Below are positions 14,791 through 35,523 of a stretch of DNA of 64,000 bases, in pieces. Where the stretch lies: the NCBI GenBank assembly GCA_019448385.1, contig JAGTXO010000026.1, positions 250,501 to 314,500 of the forward strand, written 5' to 3'. This DNA is from Diacronema lutheri. Taxonomy: Eukaryota > Haptophyta > Pavlovophyceae > Pavlovales > Pavlovaceae. Made by a program: the position numbers and the translations under genes. Below the pieces are notes generated by a model. It was not told the DNA's origin. It saw nothing but the letters and a program-made list of their open reading frames with translations, and did no database searches. Numbering within the stretch: position 1 is the stretch's first letter; the number at the start of each line of letters is the position of its first letter.

Positions 14791-17160
14791 ATGCCGGGGT
14801 CAGTCGAGATCCGCGTGCACCCGGCGAGGGCGGGCTCGTGTACGGAGACGGAGGTCAACGCCAGCGTCTCGCGCGCGCATGCCGCGCGCCGCGCGCGCAC
14901 CGCGCGCGTGACGGGCATTCCGCTCGCGCTCGGCGTCGCGTGCGGCGTGATCGGCTCGGCGCTGATCACGGTGTCGGACGTGTCGTCGACGGCGTGGACG
15001 ATCGGAGCGGAGCTTACAGTGTGCTGCCTGCCGTTGCTCCTGCTCTCTGCGCCGCCGACCGAGCGGCGCAACGTTACGCTCGCGTCGCTGGCCTCCATAG
15101 CCTTCTTTGTCGGGATTGGCGCGACGAACGCGCGGACAGCGCTCGCGATGCATGCGCAAGCGGCGCGTTTGCCCTCGTGCGCAACGGCTGCGCACCTGTT
15201 CACGCTCGTGCACGCCTACGGGATCACCGCGGTGCACCCGTGGGCCGCTGCGCTGCTCACGGCCGCGCGCCACCTCCGCCGGCTGCTGGCGAGCAGCCGG
15301 GCCGCGCGCGCGCTCGGCGGCGCGATCTCGACGCGCGAGCAGCTCGCGCACCTTTGGTCGACCGCGGCGTGGGTGTACGCTGTGTGCGCGCTCGCGTGGG
15401 GGTGGACACACGCGCTCGTGGGCTCAACCACGCCCCGCTATGCAACGACAGGTTTGTGCAAGATCGGCATCCCGTTCCTCGTCGTCTTCCTGTGCTGCGC
15501 GGCGTTTTGCGCGAACGGCCGCGTGCGCCGTCGGCTGCACGCATGGCTCGTCGCGCGTGGCGATGGCATCGGTGCGGCGGCGGGGATTGCGGTGCTGATC
15601 GGGAACGCCGACCCGCGCTCGGCCGTCGCCGACGGCGAGCGCCGCCTGCGCGCCGTGCCGTGCGCCCAGCTCACGGTCGATGTGTTCGCGTCGTCCGCCG
15701 TGTCGGCGCACTGGATCGGCATGTCGGTGCCGGCCGAGCTCGACGCCGTCGACGCGTTTGTCTCGCACTCGTGGCACGATCCGGCCGGGCCCAAGTTTGA
15801 CGCGCTGATGGCGTGGCGCGGAGACTTCATCTCCGCGCACAAGCGCGAACCGCTCGTGTGGCTCGACCGGTGCTGCATCACGCGGCTGGGCGACGACCTG
15901 CCGCACTTGCCCATCTTCCTCGCCGCGTCGCGCCAGCTGCTCATCCTCGCCGGTCCTACGTGGACGAAACGGCTGTGGTGCCTCGTCGAGTGCTTTGTCT
16001 TCGACCAGATGAAGCCGGACCTGCACGGCGCCGACGCGCCGACGCTCGCCGCGCTCGCGCAGCTGCGGCTGCTGCCCGGGTGCGACGAGGCCGTGCTCGC
16101 CACCGTCGACGTGAACACGTGCGAGTGCGCGCACCGTGACGATTACGACCGGCTGATCGGCGTACTCGAGGCGGCGTACGGCTCCGTCGAAGTCTTCAAC
16201 GAGCGGGCACGTTTCCTGCTGCAGCGCCTGCCGCGCGGGGGCGGGGCCGACGGCAGCACGCCGCCGGCGCGGCCGAGCCGCCTGTTGGCGCCCATTTCGA
16301 GCCCGTCGCGCAGCAGCCACGGGAGCGGAGGCAGCTGCGGCGATGGCAGCTGGCGCCTGTCGCGGACGGCGGTCAAGGGCTCCGCTGCGCCCAGCGGGCA
16401 GGGGGCGCCAGCCGCCGCCGCGTCTGGCGCGGCGACGCCGCCGGCCGCCGCGTCTGGCGCGGCGACGCCGCCGGCGACGGACGCCGCGTGCGCCGAGTTT
16501 GCGAGCGTGACGCTGACGCGCGAGCTTACGATGGCGGCGCCTGTGCAGCCCTCCCAGCCCGCCACGTCGGAGGCGCACGTCGCGCAGCCGGCGAAGCGGC
16601 AGGTGGCGCGCCGTCGGCTCAGCACCGAGGGGCTGCTCTCCGCGCTCGTCGTGTGCGTCTACGTGGTCCTCGCCGCCGTCTACTCGCGCTGGGCGCACGA
16701 GCCCGGCGCGGCAGAATGCGACTGGTGCGACGCGCGCCTTGCTCGGCTGCGCGCGACCGACGGCTCGGGCTGGGTCTTTGCGACCGACGGGGGCGCGCGC
16801 GCATCCGCCGGGCGCGCATGGCGCTACTCTGCGCAAAGGTGGCCGAACGGCCGCGCCTCGGCTGCGCTACCGTGGGACGAGGCTGCGCGCGCGTGCGGCG
16901 CTTCGTTTGGCGGCGCTCTCGCTCGGCCCGCAGACAGCGCCGAGGAGCGGCTGCTGCTGTGCGTTCTCGGGGAGCACGCGCTCAGCGCGTGGGTCGCGCG
17001 CCCTGCTTCGGATGGCCATGCGCCACGGGATGGGGCTGGCGCTGCCGAGGCTGCACGCGCAACGACACGGTGCCCCGAGCTCGCGCCGTGGGGGGTGCAG
17101 TCGATCGAATGCACGTACGCCACGCACTACGTGTGCGAGGCGCATGTTGCCGCCCCTTAG
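14791..17160 (+). CDS. Multi-pass membrane protein with TIR-like domain and C-terminal C-type-lectin-like domain
   Basis: 789 residues from the ATG at 14791; an upstream exon is possible. Residues about 45-265 hold six or so hydrophobic segments (for example IPLALGVACGVIGSALITV, CKIGIPFLVVFLCCAAFC). Residues about 318-430 form a domain starting AVDAFVSHSWHD, then VWLDRCCI and LLILAGPTWTKRLWCLVE. This is the SHSW-type TIR-superfamily module that recurs in algal membrane proteins. A single hydrophobic segment lies at about 615-633 (LLSALVVCVYVVLAAVYS). Residues about 641-789 look like a C-type-lectin domain: paired Cys (CDWC), WDEAARACGASFGGALARP, SAWVA, then a terminal CP...ECTYATHYVCE. A cell-surface or vesicle receptor is one plausible role; no ligand can be inferred. 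The stop codon lies inside the first copy of a tandem repeat. Confidence 0.72.
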   Translation: MPGSVEIRVHPARAGSCTETEVNASVSRAHAARRARTARVTGIPLALGVACGVIGSALITVSDVSSTAWTIGAELTVCCLPLLLLSAPPTERRNVTLASLASIAFFVGIGATNARTALAMHAQAARLPSCATAAHLFTLVHAYGITAVHPWAAALLTAARHLRRLLASSRAARALGGAISTREQLAHLWSTAAWVYAVCALAWGWTHALVGSTTPRYATTGLCKIGIPFLVVFLCCAAFCANGRVRRRLHAWLVARGDGIGAAAGIAVLIGNADPRSAVADGERRLRAVPCAQLTVDVFASSAVSAHWIGMSVPAELDAVDAFVSHSWHDPAGPKFDALMAWRGDFISAHKREPLVWLDRCCITRLGDDLPHLPIFLAASRQLLILAGPTWTKRLWCLVECFVFDQMKPDLHGADAPTLAALAQLRLLPGCDEAVLATVDVNTCECAHRDDYDRLIGVLEAAYGSVEVFNERARFLLQRLPRGGGADGSTPPARPSRLLAPISSPSRSSHGSGGSCGDGSWRLSRTAVKGSAAPSGQGAPAAAASGAATPPAAASGAATPPATDAACAEFASVTLTRELTMAAPVQPSQPATSEAHVAQPAKRQVARRRLSTEGLLSALVVCVYVVLAAVYSRWAHEPGAAECDWCDARLARLRATDGSGWVFATDGGARASAGRAWRYSAQRWPNGRASAALPWDEAARACGASFGGALARPADSAEERLLLCVLGEHALSAWVARPASDGHAPRDGAGAAEAARATTRCPELAPWGVQSIECTYATHYVCEAHVAAP

Positions 17161-17456
17161 CCAACAAACGCAGGCGTTGCACGCTAGGCGAAGGGGGGGA
17201 AAAGGGTTGGGAAATGTGCGAGGCGCATGTTGCCGCCCCTTAGCCAACAAACGCAGGCGTTGCACGCTAGGCGAAGGGGGGAAAGGGTTGGGAAATGTGC
17301 GAGGCGCATGTTGCCGCCCCTTAGCCAACAAACGCAGGCGTTGCACGCTAGGCGGAGGGGGGGAAAGGGTTGGGAAATGTGCGAGGCGCATGTTGCCGCC
17401 CCTTAGCCAACAAACGCAGGCGTTGCACGCTAGGCGAAGGGGGGAAAAGGATTGGG
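17131..17456. repeat. Tandem array, four copies of an 81-83 bp unit
   Basis: Copies start at about 17133, 17216, 17297 and 17379, with spacings of 83, 81 and 82. Each begins gtgcgaggcgcatgttgccg, includes a TAG and gccaacaaacgcaggcgttg, and ends in a G-run plus aaagggttgggaaat. Length variation comes from the G and A runs. The first copy overlaps the last coding residues and stop codon of the lectin-type gene, so the array is a multiplied gene 3' end. It sits between two convergent genes. Confidence 0.95.
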
Positions 17457-27537: not shown

Positions 27538-30494
<2,957 letters not shown>

Positions 30495-30623
30495 TACCTC
30501 CACGTGTCGCGCCTCTTTTGAAAATGGCGGATGTCCGCACCTCTCCGTCGACCGTCGGCGACGACGACGCGCAGGTCAGCGCAGTTCATCCGCCCGACGA
30601 AGAATGCGGGCAATCAGCTCAGG

Positions 30624-31433
30624 TCAGCCTAATCGATGACCTGCCGCCGCGCCGAGCGCAACGGCGCTCGCCAGCCCGGCGACGGTCCCGCCGCCGCCGC
30701 CGCCCTCGCCCGCGGCGAGCGCGGCGTTGAGCGCGACCGCGAGCCACGCGTTCATTTCGACGCCGTACATGCTGAGCTTCATCCCCGGCCGCCGCGCCGC
30801 GAGCGCGGCCAGCCACCCAAGGCGCGCGCCGTTGCTCGAGCACGACGCGGCGCCCCGGTCGTCGAAGAGCCGCGTGCCCACGGCATGCGCGAGCATGCCG
30901 CAAAGCACAAAGAGCGAGAGGGCGGAGGCGGCCGAGCCGGGGCGGCGCTCGAGCTCGGGTCCGCACGAAAGCGCAGCAATCACGCAAAAGATCAGGCCCA
31001 TCAGCGAGTGTTGTGCGAACGGCGCGAGCACGAAGCTCGCGGGGCGCGCAAACCCCGCGTGCGGCGGCGTGAAGAATTTGAACGCCGTCGTCGGCCGAAA
31101 CTGGTAGGCGGCAAACGATGCGGTGGAAGTCACGAGGATGACCGCGATCGACAAGTCCTTCATCGGGAGCCGGATCCACGCGCCGAGCACGCCGACGTGT
31201 GTCGGGTGCGCACGCCGCTTCGAGAAGCGCACGGTGCACAGCACGAGATCGTCCACGTTGCGGTCCGGGCTGCCGCGCCACTCGAGGCGCGGCGGTCGCG
31301 CGAGGTGGGAGGCGAACTGGGCGGGCCAATTGGCGATGCTGGCGCGCAAACCGAGCGTTGCGACGTGTGGCCGCGTGTGGTGCAGCACGAGCGCGCCCAA
31401 GATCAGAGCGCATGCCCTCCGATCGACCGCCAT
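30624..31433 (-). CDS. Multi-pass membrane protein, derlin/rhomboid-like
   Basis: 269 residues in one exon. The first 20 residues after the ATG at 31433 (MAVDRRACALILGALVLHHT) look like a signal peptide. A soluble Arg-rich stretch is followed by hydrophobic segments at about 119-135, 160-190, 200-220 and 240-265. The block FVLAPFAQHSLMGLIFCVIA plus CGPELERRPGSAASALSLFV has the helix-loop-helix pattern and the xxLE/ELE turn of the derlin-rhomboid superfamily. I see no rhomboid GxSG serine, so it would be a non-protease member. Next to the plastid-type CDC48, a symbiont-derived derlin (a proposed SELMA channel component) is an attractive reading, but similarity is weak by eye. It is divergent from the SPX-PRPS gene. 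Confidence 0.6.
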   Translation of the reverse strand: MAVDRRACALILGALVLHHTRPHVATLGLRASIANWPAQFASHLARPPRLEWRGSPDRNVDDLVLCTVRFSKRRAHPTHVGVLGAWIRLPMKDLSIAVILVTSTASFAAYQFRPTTAFKFFTPPHAGFARPASFVLAPFAQHSLMGLIFCVIAALSCGPELERRPGSAASALSLFVLCGMLAHAVGTRLFDDRGAASCSSNGARLGWLAALAARRPGMKLSMYGVEMNAWLAVALNAALAAGEGGGGGGTVAGLASAVALGAAAGHRLG

Positions 31434-31510
31434 CGTGCGACCCACTTTTGACGACATCGGGCGGCCGTCGCGCGCCCACATCGCGCGCGCCCGGCACGCC
31501 GCTCCACGAA
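31434..31510. promoter_or_regulatory. Divergent promoter region, derlin-like / SPX-PRPS
   Basis: 77 nt between start codons. No strong motif seen; a shared bidirectional promoter is implied. Confidence 0.35.
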
Positions 31511-33398
31511 ATGACAACCATGAACCCGCCGGACGACAGGATCGACCGGCGCGACTCGCTGCGCGCTTCCTACGTGCGCGCCGAGGGCCTCGACAAGTTT
31601 ATGCAGGAGCTGCAGTCGTACGTGCAGCCCGGCTGGGAGGAGGACTACATCGACTACGAGCGCCTGAAGCTCCTCCTCAAGGAGCACGGCGGCGAGAAGG
31701 AGGGCGGCGTGCGCGTGAACACGGACAAGGACAAGCTCGATGCGGAATTCTTTCCCGTGCTCGAAAACGAGCTGGACAAGGTCAACGAGGCCTTTGTGCG
31801 CAAGTGCGACTACTTTGAGTCGGTCGTGCACTCGTACCACCCGCAGGGCCCGCAGGGCACCGTGCAGCTCTCGGGCGACTCGGAGACGTCGGAGGCCAAG
31901 GCGGCGCCCCGCCCCGCCAAGCACGTCACGCACGAGGACTATTGGACCGCCTTCAAGGACCTCGGCAAGATGACCACGTACGTGTGGATCAACCGGCAGG
32001 GCTTCTTCAAGATTATGAAGAAGTACGACAAGGTCTGCGCGCTCACAAACACTGGGCGCGAGCTCGGGCCCGACTTTGAGCGGCGGCTCGACCACGAGGT
32101 GTTCACCGGGCCGAGGCTCGAGACGCTCATCGAGCTCTACAAGAACAAGAAGCCGCAGGCCACCAGTGCGCGCGCGCACTCGCGCGAGCGCTCGCGCGCG
32201 CGGCGCGTGCTCGCGTGCGCGGACTGCGCGTTGCTCGGCCGACGGCGTCGCGCGTGCGCAGGCATCGGCTCGACGCTCGAGATGAAGCTCATCGCGGGCA
32301 CGGCCAACCCCGAGCTGGCGAACGAGCTGTCCGCGAGGCTGGGCGTGCCGCTCATGCCCGTCAAGATCGGCGCCTTTAACGATGGCGAGGTGGCGATTCA
32401 GCTGATGGAGAACGTGCGCAACGCGGAGGTGTACATCATCCAGCCGACCTCCACGCCGGTCAACGACAACCTCATGCAGCTGCTCCTCCTCATCTCCGCG
32501 TGCCGGCGTGCGTCCGCATCGCGCGTGATCGCAGTCGTGCCCTACTATGGCTACGCGCGGCAGGACCGCAAGGAGCGCTCTCGCGTGCCCATCTCCGCGG
32601 CGGACGTAGCAAAGCTGATGGAGAGCATGGGCGTCGACCGCGTCTGCTGCGTCGACCTGCACTGCGGGCAGATTCAGGGCTTCTTTGGCCCGCGCACGCC
32701 GGTCGACAACTTGTGGGCGTCGACCATTGCGCTGCAGTACTTCAAGTCGCGCGTCGACTCAGACAACGTGGTCGTCGTCTCGCCCGACGCGGGCGGCGTG
32801 GCGCGCGCCAAGCTTTTCAAGGACGGGCTCGAGGCGGTCAACATGAAGCCGTCGCTCGCCGTGATCATCAAGCAGCGCGTCAAGGCGGGCGAGGTCGGGC
32901 AGACGGACCTCGTCGGCTCTGTTCGCGACTGTGACGTCATCATCGTCGACGACATGATCGACACGGCCGGCACGCTCTGCGCGGCCGCGAACGAGCTCAA
33001 GCAGTTTGGCGCGAAACGCGTATTCGCCTTCGCGACGCACGGCCTCTTCAACAACCCGGCCGCTAAGCGCATCGAGGAGTCGTACCTCGAGGAGGTCGTC
33101 ACGTCGAACACGATTCCGCTGCGTGACGAGGTCGTGCAGCAGACCGCCAAGATTCGGCAGGTGCGCGCGCGCGAGCGCCAGCGCGCCGCGCCGTGCGAGC
33201 CGCGCCGTGCGAGCCGCGCACGGGGAGGCAGGCCCGCGCGCGCTCATGCGCCACGCGTCGCGCCGCGCGAACAACGAACGCCATGTCGCGCAGCTGTCCG
33301 TTGGCAAGCTGCTCGCCGAAGCGATCGTGAGCATCCATACGGGCAAGAGCGTCAGCCAGCTCTTCGACGTGAAGAATCATGCGATGGCCAGCGCGTGA
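31511..33398 (+). CDS. SPX domain fused to class I ribose-phosphate pyrophosphokinase, three exons
   Basis: 552 residues. Exons: 31511..32165, 32262..33160, 33294..33398. Residues about 27-216 are an SPX domain: LDKFMQELQSYVQPGWEEDY, IDYERLKLLLK, VNEAFVRKCDYFE, then KIMKKYDK at 167-174, the Lys cluster that binds inositol pyrophosphates in other SPX proteins. From about residue 221 comes a complete PRPP synthetase (MKLIAGTANPELA, FNDGEVAIQLMENVR, VVPYYGYARQDRK, VCCVDLHCGQIQGFFG) with the PRPP loop IIVDDMIDTAGTL at about 445. The last exon restores KIRQ-LSVGKLLAEAIVSIH. Intron 1 (96 nt, GTGCGC...GCAG) lies at the domain junction and is a multiple of three without stops, so both domains share one frame whether spliced or not. 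An alternative start at 31520 removes three residues. Confidence 0.93.
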
Positions 33399-34480: not shown

Positions 34481-35335
34481 TCACCACTTGTCCCGCCGCT
34501 TGCGCAGCTCCGTGAAGACCGCCAAGTCGCTCGCGTCATCGCCAAGCTCGAGCGCGTGGCGGATGGTGGCGCTGCGTGAGCGTAGAAACGGGTTGGTCGC
34601 CAGCTCGAGCGCAATCGTGGTCGGCACCGTCGGCTTGCCCTGCGCGCGCGCGGCATCGATCTGCTCAGCGCGGCGCACGAGCGCCTCGTTGGTTGGGTCG
34701 ACGGTCAGCGCATACCGCGCGTTCGTCTGCGTGTACTCATGCGCGCAGTATACGACCGTGTCTGGCGGCAGCGACCCCAGCTCCTCGACCGACGCCTTCG
34801 CCTGCGCGGCGGACCCTTCGAAGAGGCGGCCGCAGCCGAGCGCAAAGAGCGCGTCGCCGACGAAAAGAAGCTTCTCCTTCTCGACGTGGAACGCAATGTG
34901 GCCCGTTGTGTGCCCGGGCACCTCAAGCACGCGCAGCTCGGTGGCGCCAAACGGGATGCACGAGCCGCCCGCGACGCCGACGTCCATGCCGGGGATGCGG
35001 TGCCGATCGGCCTCGGCCGCGACGATGATGCACTTGGGGTAGCGCCCCTTGAGCTCCAAGTTGCCACCCGCGTGGTCGTGGTGGTGGTGCGTGTTGAGGA
35101 TGTGCGTGAGCTGCCAACCGTGCTTGTCGCACTCGGCCGCGATCGCGCGCGCGTCGGGTGTGTCGATCGCGGCGGTGAGACCGGCCGCGTCGTCGCGCAG
35201 GAGGAAGCCGTAGTTGTCCTTGAGGCACGGAAATTGCTCGACGCGCAGCGAGCGCGCCGCTGTGCTCGCCATCTTCGACCGCGCCCCCAGACACAGGAGG
35301 AGACCGCGTATGGACGAGGATGCCGACGCGCGCAT
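34481..35335 (-). CDS. HAGH: Hydroxyacylglutathione hydrolase (glyoxalase II)
   Basis: Hydrolyses S-D-lactoylglutathione to D-lactate and glutathione, the second step of methylglyoxal detoxification. The metallo-beta-lactamase motif THHHHDHAGG is complete at about residue 82, followed by VPGHTTGHIAFH, LFVGDALFALGCGRLFEGSA and YCAHEYTQTNARYALTVDP. The last supplies the His and the Tyr/Asn-rich substrate region. The C-terminus (NPFLRS) is of the short bacterial/organellar GloB type. The first ATG (35335) gives a 20-residue Ser/Arg-rich leader (MRASASSSIRGLLLCLGARS) suitable for mitochondrial or plastid import. A second ATG at 35272 gives a cytosolic form. Alternative starts for dual targeting are known in this family. 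Confidence 0.93.
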   Translation of the reverse strand: MRASASSSIRGLLLCLGARSKMASTAARSLRVEQFPCLKDNYGFLLRDDAAGLTAAIDTPDARAIAAECDKHGWQLTHILNTHHHHDHAGGNLELKGRYPKCIIVAAEADRHRIPGMDVGVAGGSCIPFGATELRVLEVPGHTTGHIAFHVEKEKLLFVGDALFALGCGRLFEGSAAQAKASVEELGSLPPDTVVYCAHEYTQTNARYALTVDPTNEALVRRAEQIDAARAQGKPTVPTTIALELATNPFLRSRSATIRHALELGDDASDLAVFTELRKRRDKW

Positions 35336-35523
35336 GTGCACCCGCCTTTTTTGAAAGTTCTGATTGTTCGCACGAAACGGCCAAAGCGCTTGTTGGCGGC
35401 GCTCTCAACGGCCCACAGCTAGTCGAGCTCGACGAGCCCGTCGCCGGCGAGCCTACCGCCAAGCCCCTTGCCCGGCACTTCGCCAAATCGCCGCCGCCGC
35501 TCGCGTTCAGCCCGCGTGGGGCA

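Follow-up and report, generated by a model that had tools for sequence, protein, structure and literature searches.

A gene of the haptophyte Diacronema lutheri (Pavlovales) encodes an SPX domain and a PRPP synthetase (PRS) on one chain. This SPX-PRS architecture is common to several algal classes and is apparently undescribed in the literature. Both parts were already known; what is new to us is that a receptor of inositol pyrophosphate type is joined to the enzyme of PRPP supply. Nucleotides, NAD, His and Trp are all made from PRPP, and phosphate may directly control this central branch point. Two results go beyond an earlier sequence-only reading of the same DNA: the genome search turned up no PRS gene other than SPX-PRS, and prymnesiophyte relatives show decay of the catalytic loop.

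SPX and PRPP synthetase on one chain

The window, i.e. the whole stretch of 64,000 nt that was analysed, lies on contig C28 of the D. lutheri genome (43.5 Mb, 103 contigs). Three exons in the window (Table 1) match exactly the annotated gene KFE25_010554, whose product of 549 aa is called P0001 here (P numbers designate the proteins compared, one per row). Joined and translated, they give P0001 and its stop codon, the SPX and PRS exons meeting in phase. The sequence-only reading had let the feature begin at 31511; the annotation starts the protein with the ATG at 31520, and 31511 is an in-frame ATG further upstream. It had also seen one continuous frame joining the domains. The exons do join in phase, but the raw frame is continuous over the domain boundary because intron 1 is a multiple of three without stop, which is a matter of chance and not in itself evidence of fusion. 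The intron that it placed in the linker, at the domain boundary, is present in D. lutheri. The published gene models of this species are described as BRAKER2 predictions with RNA-seq alignments.

Table 1. Features of the SPX-PRS gene in the window (residue numbers are those of P0001 unless stated otherwise)
Feature	Position	Strand	Remarks
Alternative start upstream	31511..31519	+	In frame, three codons (MTT); from sequence; absent from annotated P0001
Exon 1	31520..32165	+	N-terminal extension and SPX; residues 1-215 and first base of codon 216; exact match
SPX domain	31583..32134	+	Residues 22-205; best solved match 5ijp_A, E 4.4e-7
SPX helix Y43, Y46, K50 (YIDYERLK)	31646..31669	+	Aligned to YIDYDGLK of 5ijp
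SPX N158 and lysine cluster K164/K167/K168/K171 (NRQGFFKIMKKYDK)	31991..32032	+	Aligned to NYTGFYKIIKKHDK of 5ijp
Intron 1	32166..32261	+	GT..AG, 96 nt, at SPX/PRS boundary, in frame without stop
Exon 2	32262..33160	+	Bulk of PRPP synthetase; exact match; PF13793 163.7 bits
PRPP synthetase domain	32282..33368	+	Residues 223-540, split by intron 2; NF002320, TIGR01251
Catalytic-loop K419-x-R421	32870..32878	+	Aligned to E. coli K194/R196, numbers counted from alignment
Intron 2	33161..33293	+	GT..AG, 133 nt, within PRS part
Exon 3	33294..33398	+	C-terminal PRS segment (SVSQLF) and stop codon; exact match to P0001

The linker from SPX to PRS counts 18-40 residues. Ahead of SPX Phe27 stand 23-34 residues in Pavlovales proteins and mostly 2 in other clades; given these long N-termini, the D. 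lutheri protein may be targeted to an organelle. Around the gene, a weak rhomboid-like frame (30624-31517, minus strand; 22.8 bits, cut-off 22.6) is divergent from the SPX-PRS start, and an adjoining frame is CDC48/p97-like (28404-30503, minus strand; CDC48_N, AAA and lid). A glyoxalase II-like gene (34481-35341, minus strand; HAGH_C 90.4 bits) and an 82-base unit repeated about 4 times in tandem with 97% matches (17132-17456) were also observed. No Rfam match at gathering scores was found in the 64-kb window.

The same architecture was sought among database proteins. PF03105 and PF13793 occur together in one protein in 68 of the 120 matches listed (the best of 1789 over threshold, 8000 candidates having been scored), and chance joining is therefore excluded. 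The groups concerned are haptophytes, dictyochophytes, pelagophytes and two clades termed B and D1. Members include Pavlovales sp. CCMP2436 beside D. lutheri, the prymnesiophytes Chrysochromulina and Prymnesium parvum, the dictyochophytes Octactis speculum and Rhizochromulina marina, and the pelagophyte Aureococcus anophagefferens. In databases they are named ‘hypothetical protein’ or ‘ribose-phosphate diphosphokinase’, and both Pfam domains are shown. Seven of the 68 two-domain matches (P0004, P0006, P0010, P0024, P0025, P0030, P0035) carry a source or identifier of MMETSP, a transcriptome project. With the Octactis SPX as query, both domains were found in 9 of 53 matches, query included, and with that of P0064 in 6 of 6. 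Among the best 80 of 474 viral-contig matches there was no SPX-PRS, all 80 aligning from query residue 188 onward. We found no description of such a fusion among the open-licence papers searched, which agrees with the sequence-only reading; the novelty is nevertheless not that of one locus, but of a family in haptophytes, dictyochophytes and pelagophytes. The idea of an SPX-PRS in trypanosomes was unsupported by the literature search and was dropped.

A careful PRS-domain tree of 87 rows, built with the catalytic-loop columns omitted and with 12 SPX-less rows chosen from 45 as outgroup, unites 75 family rows in one clade with support 100/100; in a quick tree made from all 120 rows the same 75 stand together (SH-aLRT 99). 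Clade B (11 rows, 100/99), dictyochophytes (10 rows, 100/100), clade D1 with pelagophytes (98/89) and haptophytes, i.e. Pavlovales with prymnesiophytes (97/90), are recovered within it, part of the group labels having been assigned by tree position; the branch joining all of these but clade B reaches no more than 93/85. When the SPX alone is put in a quick tree (65 rows), the six groups cost 6 changes, where 5 is the minimum and shuffling gives a mean of 36. Dictyochophytes (97), clade B (97) and Pavlovales (99) are clean clades there, the other three groups take one extra change each, and four rows are long. This fits a single fusion, with both halves inherited together.

Seven rows of the clade are without a database SPX call. 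In four of them (P0045, P0052, P0068, P0069), part of the SPX end precedes the PRS, and the trimmed PRS of P0067 is almost identical to that of SPX-bearing P0020. P0007 and P0074, inside the clade, start at the PRS and have no SPX; they are likely truncated models, or the SPX may have been lost. In a further PRS relative, P0119, the PRS N-terminal domain is matched twice (272.9 bits); its branch is very long.

That the fusion is genuine follows from the in-phase joining of the exons and from database relatives, some of them transcriptome-sourced, with both domains. The contrary explanation, that gene model or assembly joined two neighbouring genes, retains a negligible probability. The unspliced frame, open across intron 1, could indeed mislead, but the architecture recurs in many separate records across several algal classes, and the SPX and PRS trees show like grouping; the transcriptome-derived relatives in effect rule the artefact out.

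Ligand-site and active-site residues

The SPX profile (PF03105) scores 50.4 bits on the open reading frame and 51.3 bits, in two stretches, on spliced P0001 (Pfam cut-off 27.8). This is well over background, and the ligand-site residues are present. The sequence-only reading had described a complete SPX domain; the lysine cluster KIMKKYDK that it singled out does read so, its lysines being K164, K167, K168 and K171. Together with Y43, Y46, K50 and N158, they align with the inositol phosphate site of 5ijp. Y43 and Y46 are invariant (63/63 covering rows each, of 68), as are N158 (67/67) and the four lysines (68/68 covering rows each, of 69; K164 67/67 in the 68-row alignment), and K50 is kept in 61 of the 64 rows covering that position. 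By motif spacing, Y43, Y46, N158 and K164 were matched to Y19, Y22, N121 and K127 of Vtc2, residues reported as tested in the yeast VTC switch.

The SPX part has otherwise diverged, with a mean identity among six clade representatives of 38% vs 68% for the PRS part, and the ligand site therefore stands out. Mean conservation of six ligand columns is 0.992 vs 0.594 over 138 SPX columns, a level reached by 3 of 100000 random six-column sets, or 4 of 100000 if the draw is limited to 28 K/R/Y columns; these figures are descriptive, the rows being related by descent. The D. lutheri SPX is a putative inositol pyrophosphate-binding domain.

After the SPX, Pfam matches on the open reading frame are Pribosyltran_N (PF13793, 163 bits), Pribosyltran (PF00156, 53.1) and Pribosyl_synth (PF14572, 69.4), becoming 163.7, 53.1 and 94.4 bits on spliced P0001. 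NCBIfam gives full-length PRS matches (NF002320, 382.2 bits, cut-off 297; TIGR01251, 346 bits, cut-off 113) to what are general ribose-phosphate diphosphokinase models, no equivalog cut-off being reached by P0001. The nearest solved structure by sequence is that of E. coli PRPS (7xmu, E 1.7e-87). Counterparts of the residues named in publications on the E. coli enzyme (F35, D37, R99, H131, D170, D220, D221, T225, T228) are invariant or nearly so in the family. With the full-length profile matches, and the ATP, ribose-5-phosphate and catalytic-loop residues all in P0001, the reading as a complete class I-like PRPP synthetase is supported. The K419-x-R421 loop is kept in 7/7 Pavlovales rows. The Lys and Arg of this loop are said, from B. 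subtilis work, to be important for catalysis.

Four further conserved positions, R268 (68/68), S534 (58/59), S536 (55/59) and F539 (58/58), form a candidate Pi/ADP allosteric site 1; we take them to be R49, S308, S310 and F313 of that site in the human enzyme. Class I PRS needs Pi for activity. The AMP/ADP allosteric site 2 published for E. coli PRPS is not kept as such: E133 has become G351 (G/A in the family), R178 has become K399 and the S149 position is variable, with R102 kept as R321 in 61/68 rows. Filament control of E. coli type was rejected: the published contacts Y24, R301 and R302 are not kept as such, the first position being G in 68/68 rows and the other two R in 26/60 and 10/60.

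The only PRS gene found in D. lutheri and loop loss in prymnesiophytes

Searched with PF13793 and PF14572, the D. lutheri genome gave one match over cut-off, the SPX-PRS gene; as a control, both profiles match in 14/14 control genomes, archaea included. An Ectocarpus PRS as query returned the SPX-PRS place and one weak match on contig C89. The latter was discarded as a second PRS, being a phosphoribosyltransferase piece (PF00156, 34.3 bits) under the PF14572 cut-off. The SPX-PRS is therefore the only PRPP synthetase found by search in this genome. According to the published BUSCO figures the assembly is 80.8% complete, with 12.9% missing, and a second PRS could thus be unseen.

The same genome has two PPIP5K-type and four IPK-type loci (the latter from six matches), i.e. 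kinases of inositol-pyrophosphate type, and eleven SPX matches at eight places, SPX-PRS included. Two of these SPX lie beside EXS frames, and SLC13-type, RING and VTC partners each share one frame with an SPX. The place on C44 has Zn_clus and PAP_fibrillin matches in nearby frames, perhaps neighbouring genes, and that on C30 no domain in the frames tested. Judging from the kinase-type and other SPX loci, a setting for inositol pyrophosphate signalling is present in D. lutheri. SPX transcripts in general have been reported to respond to phosphorus stress in haptophytes and a pelagophyte, and PHO81-like SPX contigs appear in a published table; in 2017, marine-algal SPX proteins were described as largely uncharacterised.

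The K-x-R loop is not kept throughout the family. Among 75 family rows it is kept in 53, lost in 20 and too short in 2 (P0073, P0081). Two losses were dropped: in P0066 (Aureococcus) the gene model skips a stretch that P0070 and P0072 keep, and P0046 is a probable chimera, its loop identical to that of the prymnesiophyte P0015 and its remainder grouping with pelagophytes. The 18 genuine losses all fall in the prymnesiophyte clade, which has 26 rows in all, 6 with the loop kept and 2 unscored; the losses represent fewer independent sequences, as the trimmed PRS is identical or almost so within the pairs P0023/P0034 and P0020/P0067. The loop Lys is absent in 18/18, the Arg being kept in 5 (P0010, P0016, P0021, P0025, P0029), and the segment varies and is often extended, reaching 60 residues in P0020 vs 23 in P0001. 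All 12 outgroup rows keep K-x-R, and 52 listed rows without SPX call have Lys at the loop position in 51 and Arg in 51.

The SPX lysines are kept in 18/18 loop-lost rows covering them, or 17/17 without the chimera P0046, so that the SPX site is conserved where the loop is not. Rows such as P0012, P0013, P0020, P0023 and P0026 combine a lost, often expanded loop with an intact SPX site. This pattern suggests that the prymnesiophyte SPX-PRS is a sensing regulatory subunit, a role for which prymnesiophytes would need a second, active PRS. The D. lutheri protein, with K419 and R421 kept, is not of this non-catalytic type.

A possible link from phosphate status to PRPP supply

The reading that we favour, and hold to be somewhat probable, is that of a sensor-enzyme, in which an N-terminal SPX receptor for inositol pyrophosphates gates a class I-type PRPP synthetase. 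With ample cytosolic phosphate, inositol pyrophosphates would rise and fill the Tyr/Lys site of the SPX. The ligand would then free an inhibitory contact of apo-SPX, either with the SPX of another subunit or with the PRS core, allowing full PRPP synthesis by a presumably cytosolic enzyme. When phosphate falls, ligand-free SPX would throttle the PRS, and the supply of nucleotide, NAD, His and Trp precursors would track phosphate status. As the protein is the sole PRPP synthetase found in D. lutheri, the whole PRPP supply might be gated there; in prymnesiophytes, where the loop has decayed and the SPX site is kept, it would probably be the sensing regulatory subunit. The broader scheme, in which phosphate sensing acts on PRPP supply through the attached SPX, gating the sole PRS in Pavlovales and, as a catalytically dead subunit, controlling other PRSs in trans in prymnesiophytes, is put forward tentatively, and we would not bet on it as a whole.

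A precedent for such release exists in yeast VTC, where the ligand is reported to break an inhibitory SPX-SPX contact and activate the complex, and where point mutations at such sites activate too. Human PRPS1 is reported to bind inositol pyrophosphates with its activity unchanged; binding alone therefore need not regulate. Since SPX outputs are described both ways, VTC being activated and Pho91 down-regulated by ligand, the direction of control in SPX-PRS is a guess. Because the loop decays in prymnesiophytes, catalysis is not an output conserved throughout the family.

Two other explanations have to be weighed against the sensor-enzyme. The SPX might be a docking or assembly module, recruiting the PRS to other SPX proteins, such as the vacuolar VTC or SPX transporters, or setting its oligomer state, with no gating of catalysis within the chain. 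The further SPX loci of D. lutheri and the homotypic SPX contacts published for VTC would accommodate this; so would the retention of the SPX site where the catalytic loop is lost, i.e. a role that needs no catalysis in cis, and the loss of the E. coli filament contacts, by which assembly may be organised differently. The residues kept are nevertheless those of the ligand site and switch and not merely a surface, and docking may itself be ligand-controlled, which would only shift the output. We regard a pure docking role as unlikely. Rated as unlikely too is the reverse direction of control, in which inositol pyrophosphate inhibits the enzyme and PRPP synthesis is favoured at low and restrained at high phosphate. 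Such inhibition at high phosphate would oppose the Pi activation of class I PRS. PRPP moreover feeds nucleotide synthesis, which has been described as a major sink for cellular phosphate; Pho91, down-regulated when inositol pyrophosphate binds its SPX, is a published case of the reverse sign. The phosphate-purine links published for yeast run via AICAR and transcription factors. The natural fusion offers a direct one-protein test of inositol pyrophosphate control over PRPP synthesis.

Compared with class I PRSs (E. coli 7xmu, human PRPS1, B. subtilis 1dkr), the D. lutheri protein has a like full-length PRS domain, active-site residues and KxR loop; it differs by the N-terminal SPX, by GPRTPVDN, which exceeds the corresponding E. 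coli DVPVDN by two residues, and by changed residues of E. coli allosteric site 2 in its family. To our knowledge, human PRPS1 has no SPX domain. The SPX-VTC polyphosphate polymerase likewise has its SPX ahead of an enzyme domain, with switch residues matched by spacing, but its output is a membrane polyphosphate polymerase, whereas SPX-PRS, a soluble enzyme, serves the supply of nucleotide precursors. SPX-EXS (PHO1/XPR1), SPX-SLC13 (Pho91-like) and SPX-RING (NLA-like) proteins share the SPX sensor domain. Their outputs are transport or ubiquitin, acting on phosphate itself, whereas the partner in SPX-PRS is a metabolic branch-point enzyme. Human PAP39/PAP41 (PDB 2c4k, 2ji4), PRS-like chains thought to be non-catalytic regulatory subunits, are comparable in kind with the prymnesiophyte members, the D. 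lutheri protein differing by its kept loop; we know of no SPX domain in them.

The SPX-less brown-algal PRSs P0112 (Ectocarpus) and P0118 (Pylaiella), outgroup in the PRS tree, are 63% identical to the D. lutheri PRS exon and have in common with it the GP-x-x-P segment; they carry an N-terminal extension resembling an organelle presequence, with no SPX call. N-terminal extensions of 18-205 residues, mostly 42-148, were observed in SPX-less PRSs outside the clade (P0112, P0118, P0086, P0082, P0097, P0075, P0105, P0113), and several of 13 such extensions inspected look like a mitochondrial presequence with a hydrophobic stretch after it, as if the enzyme were organelle-anchored.
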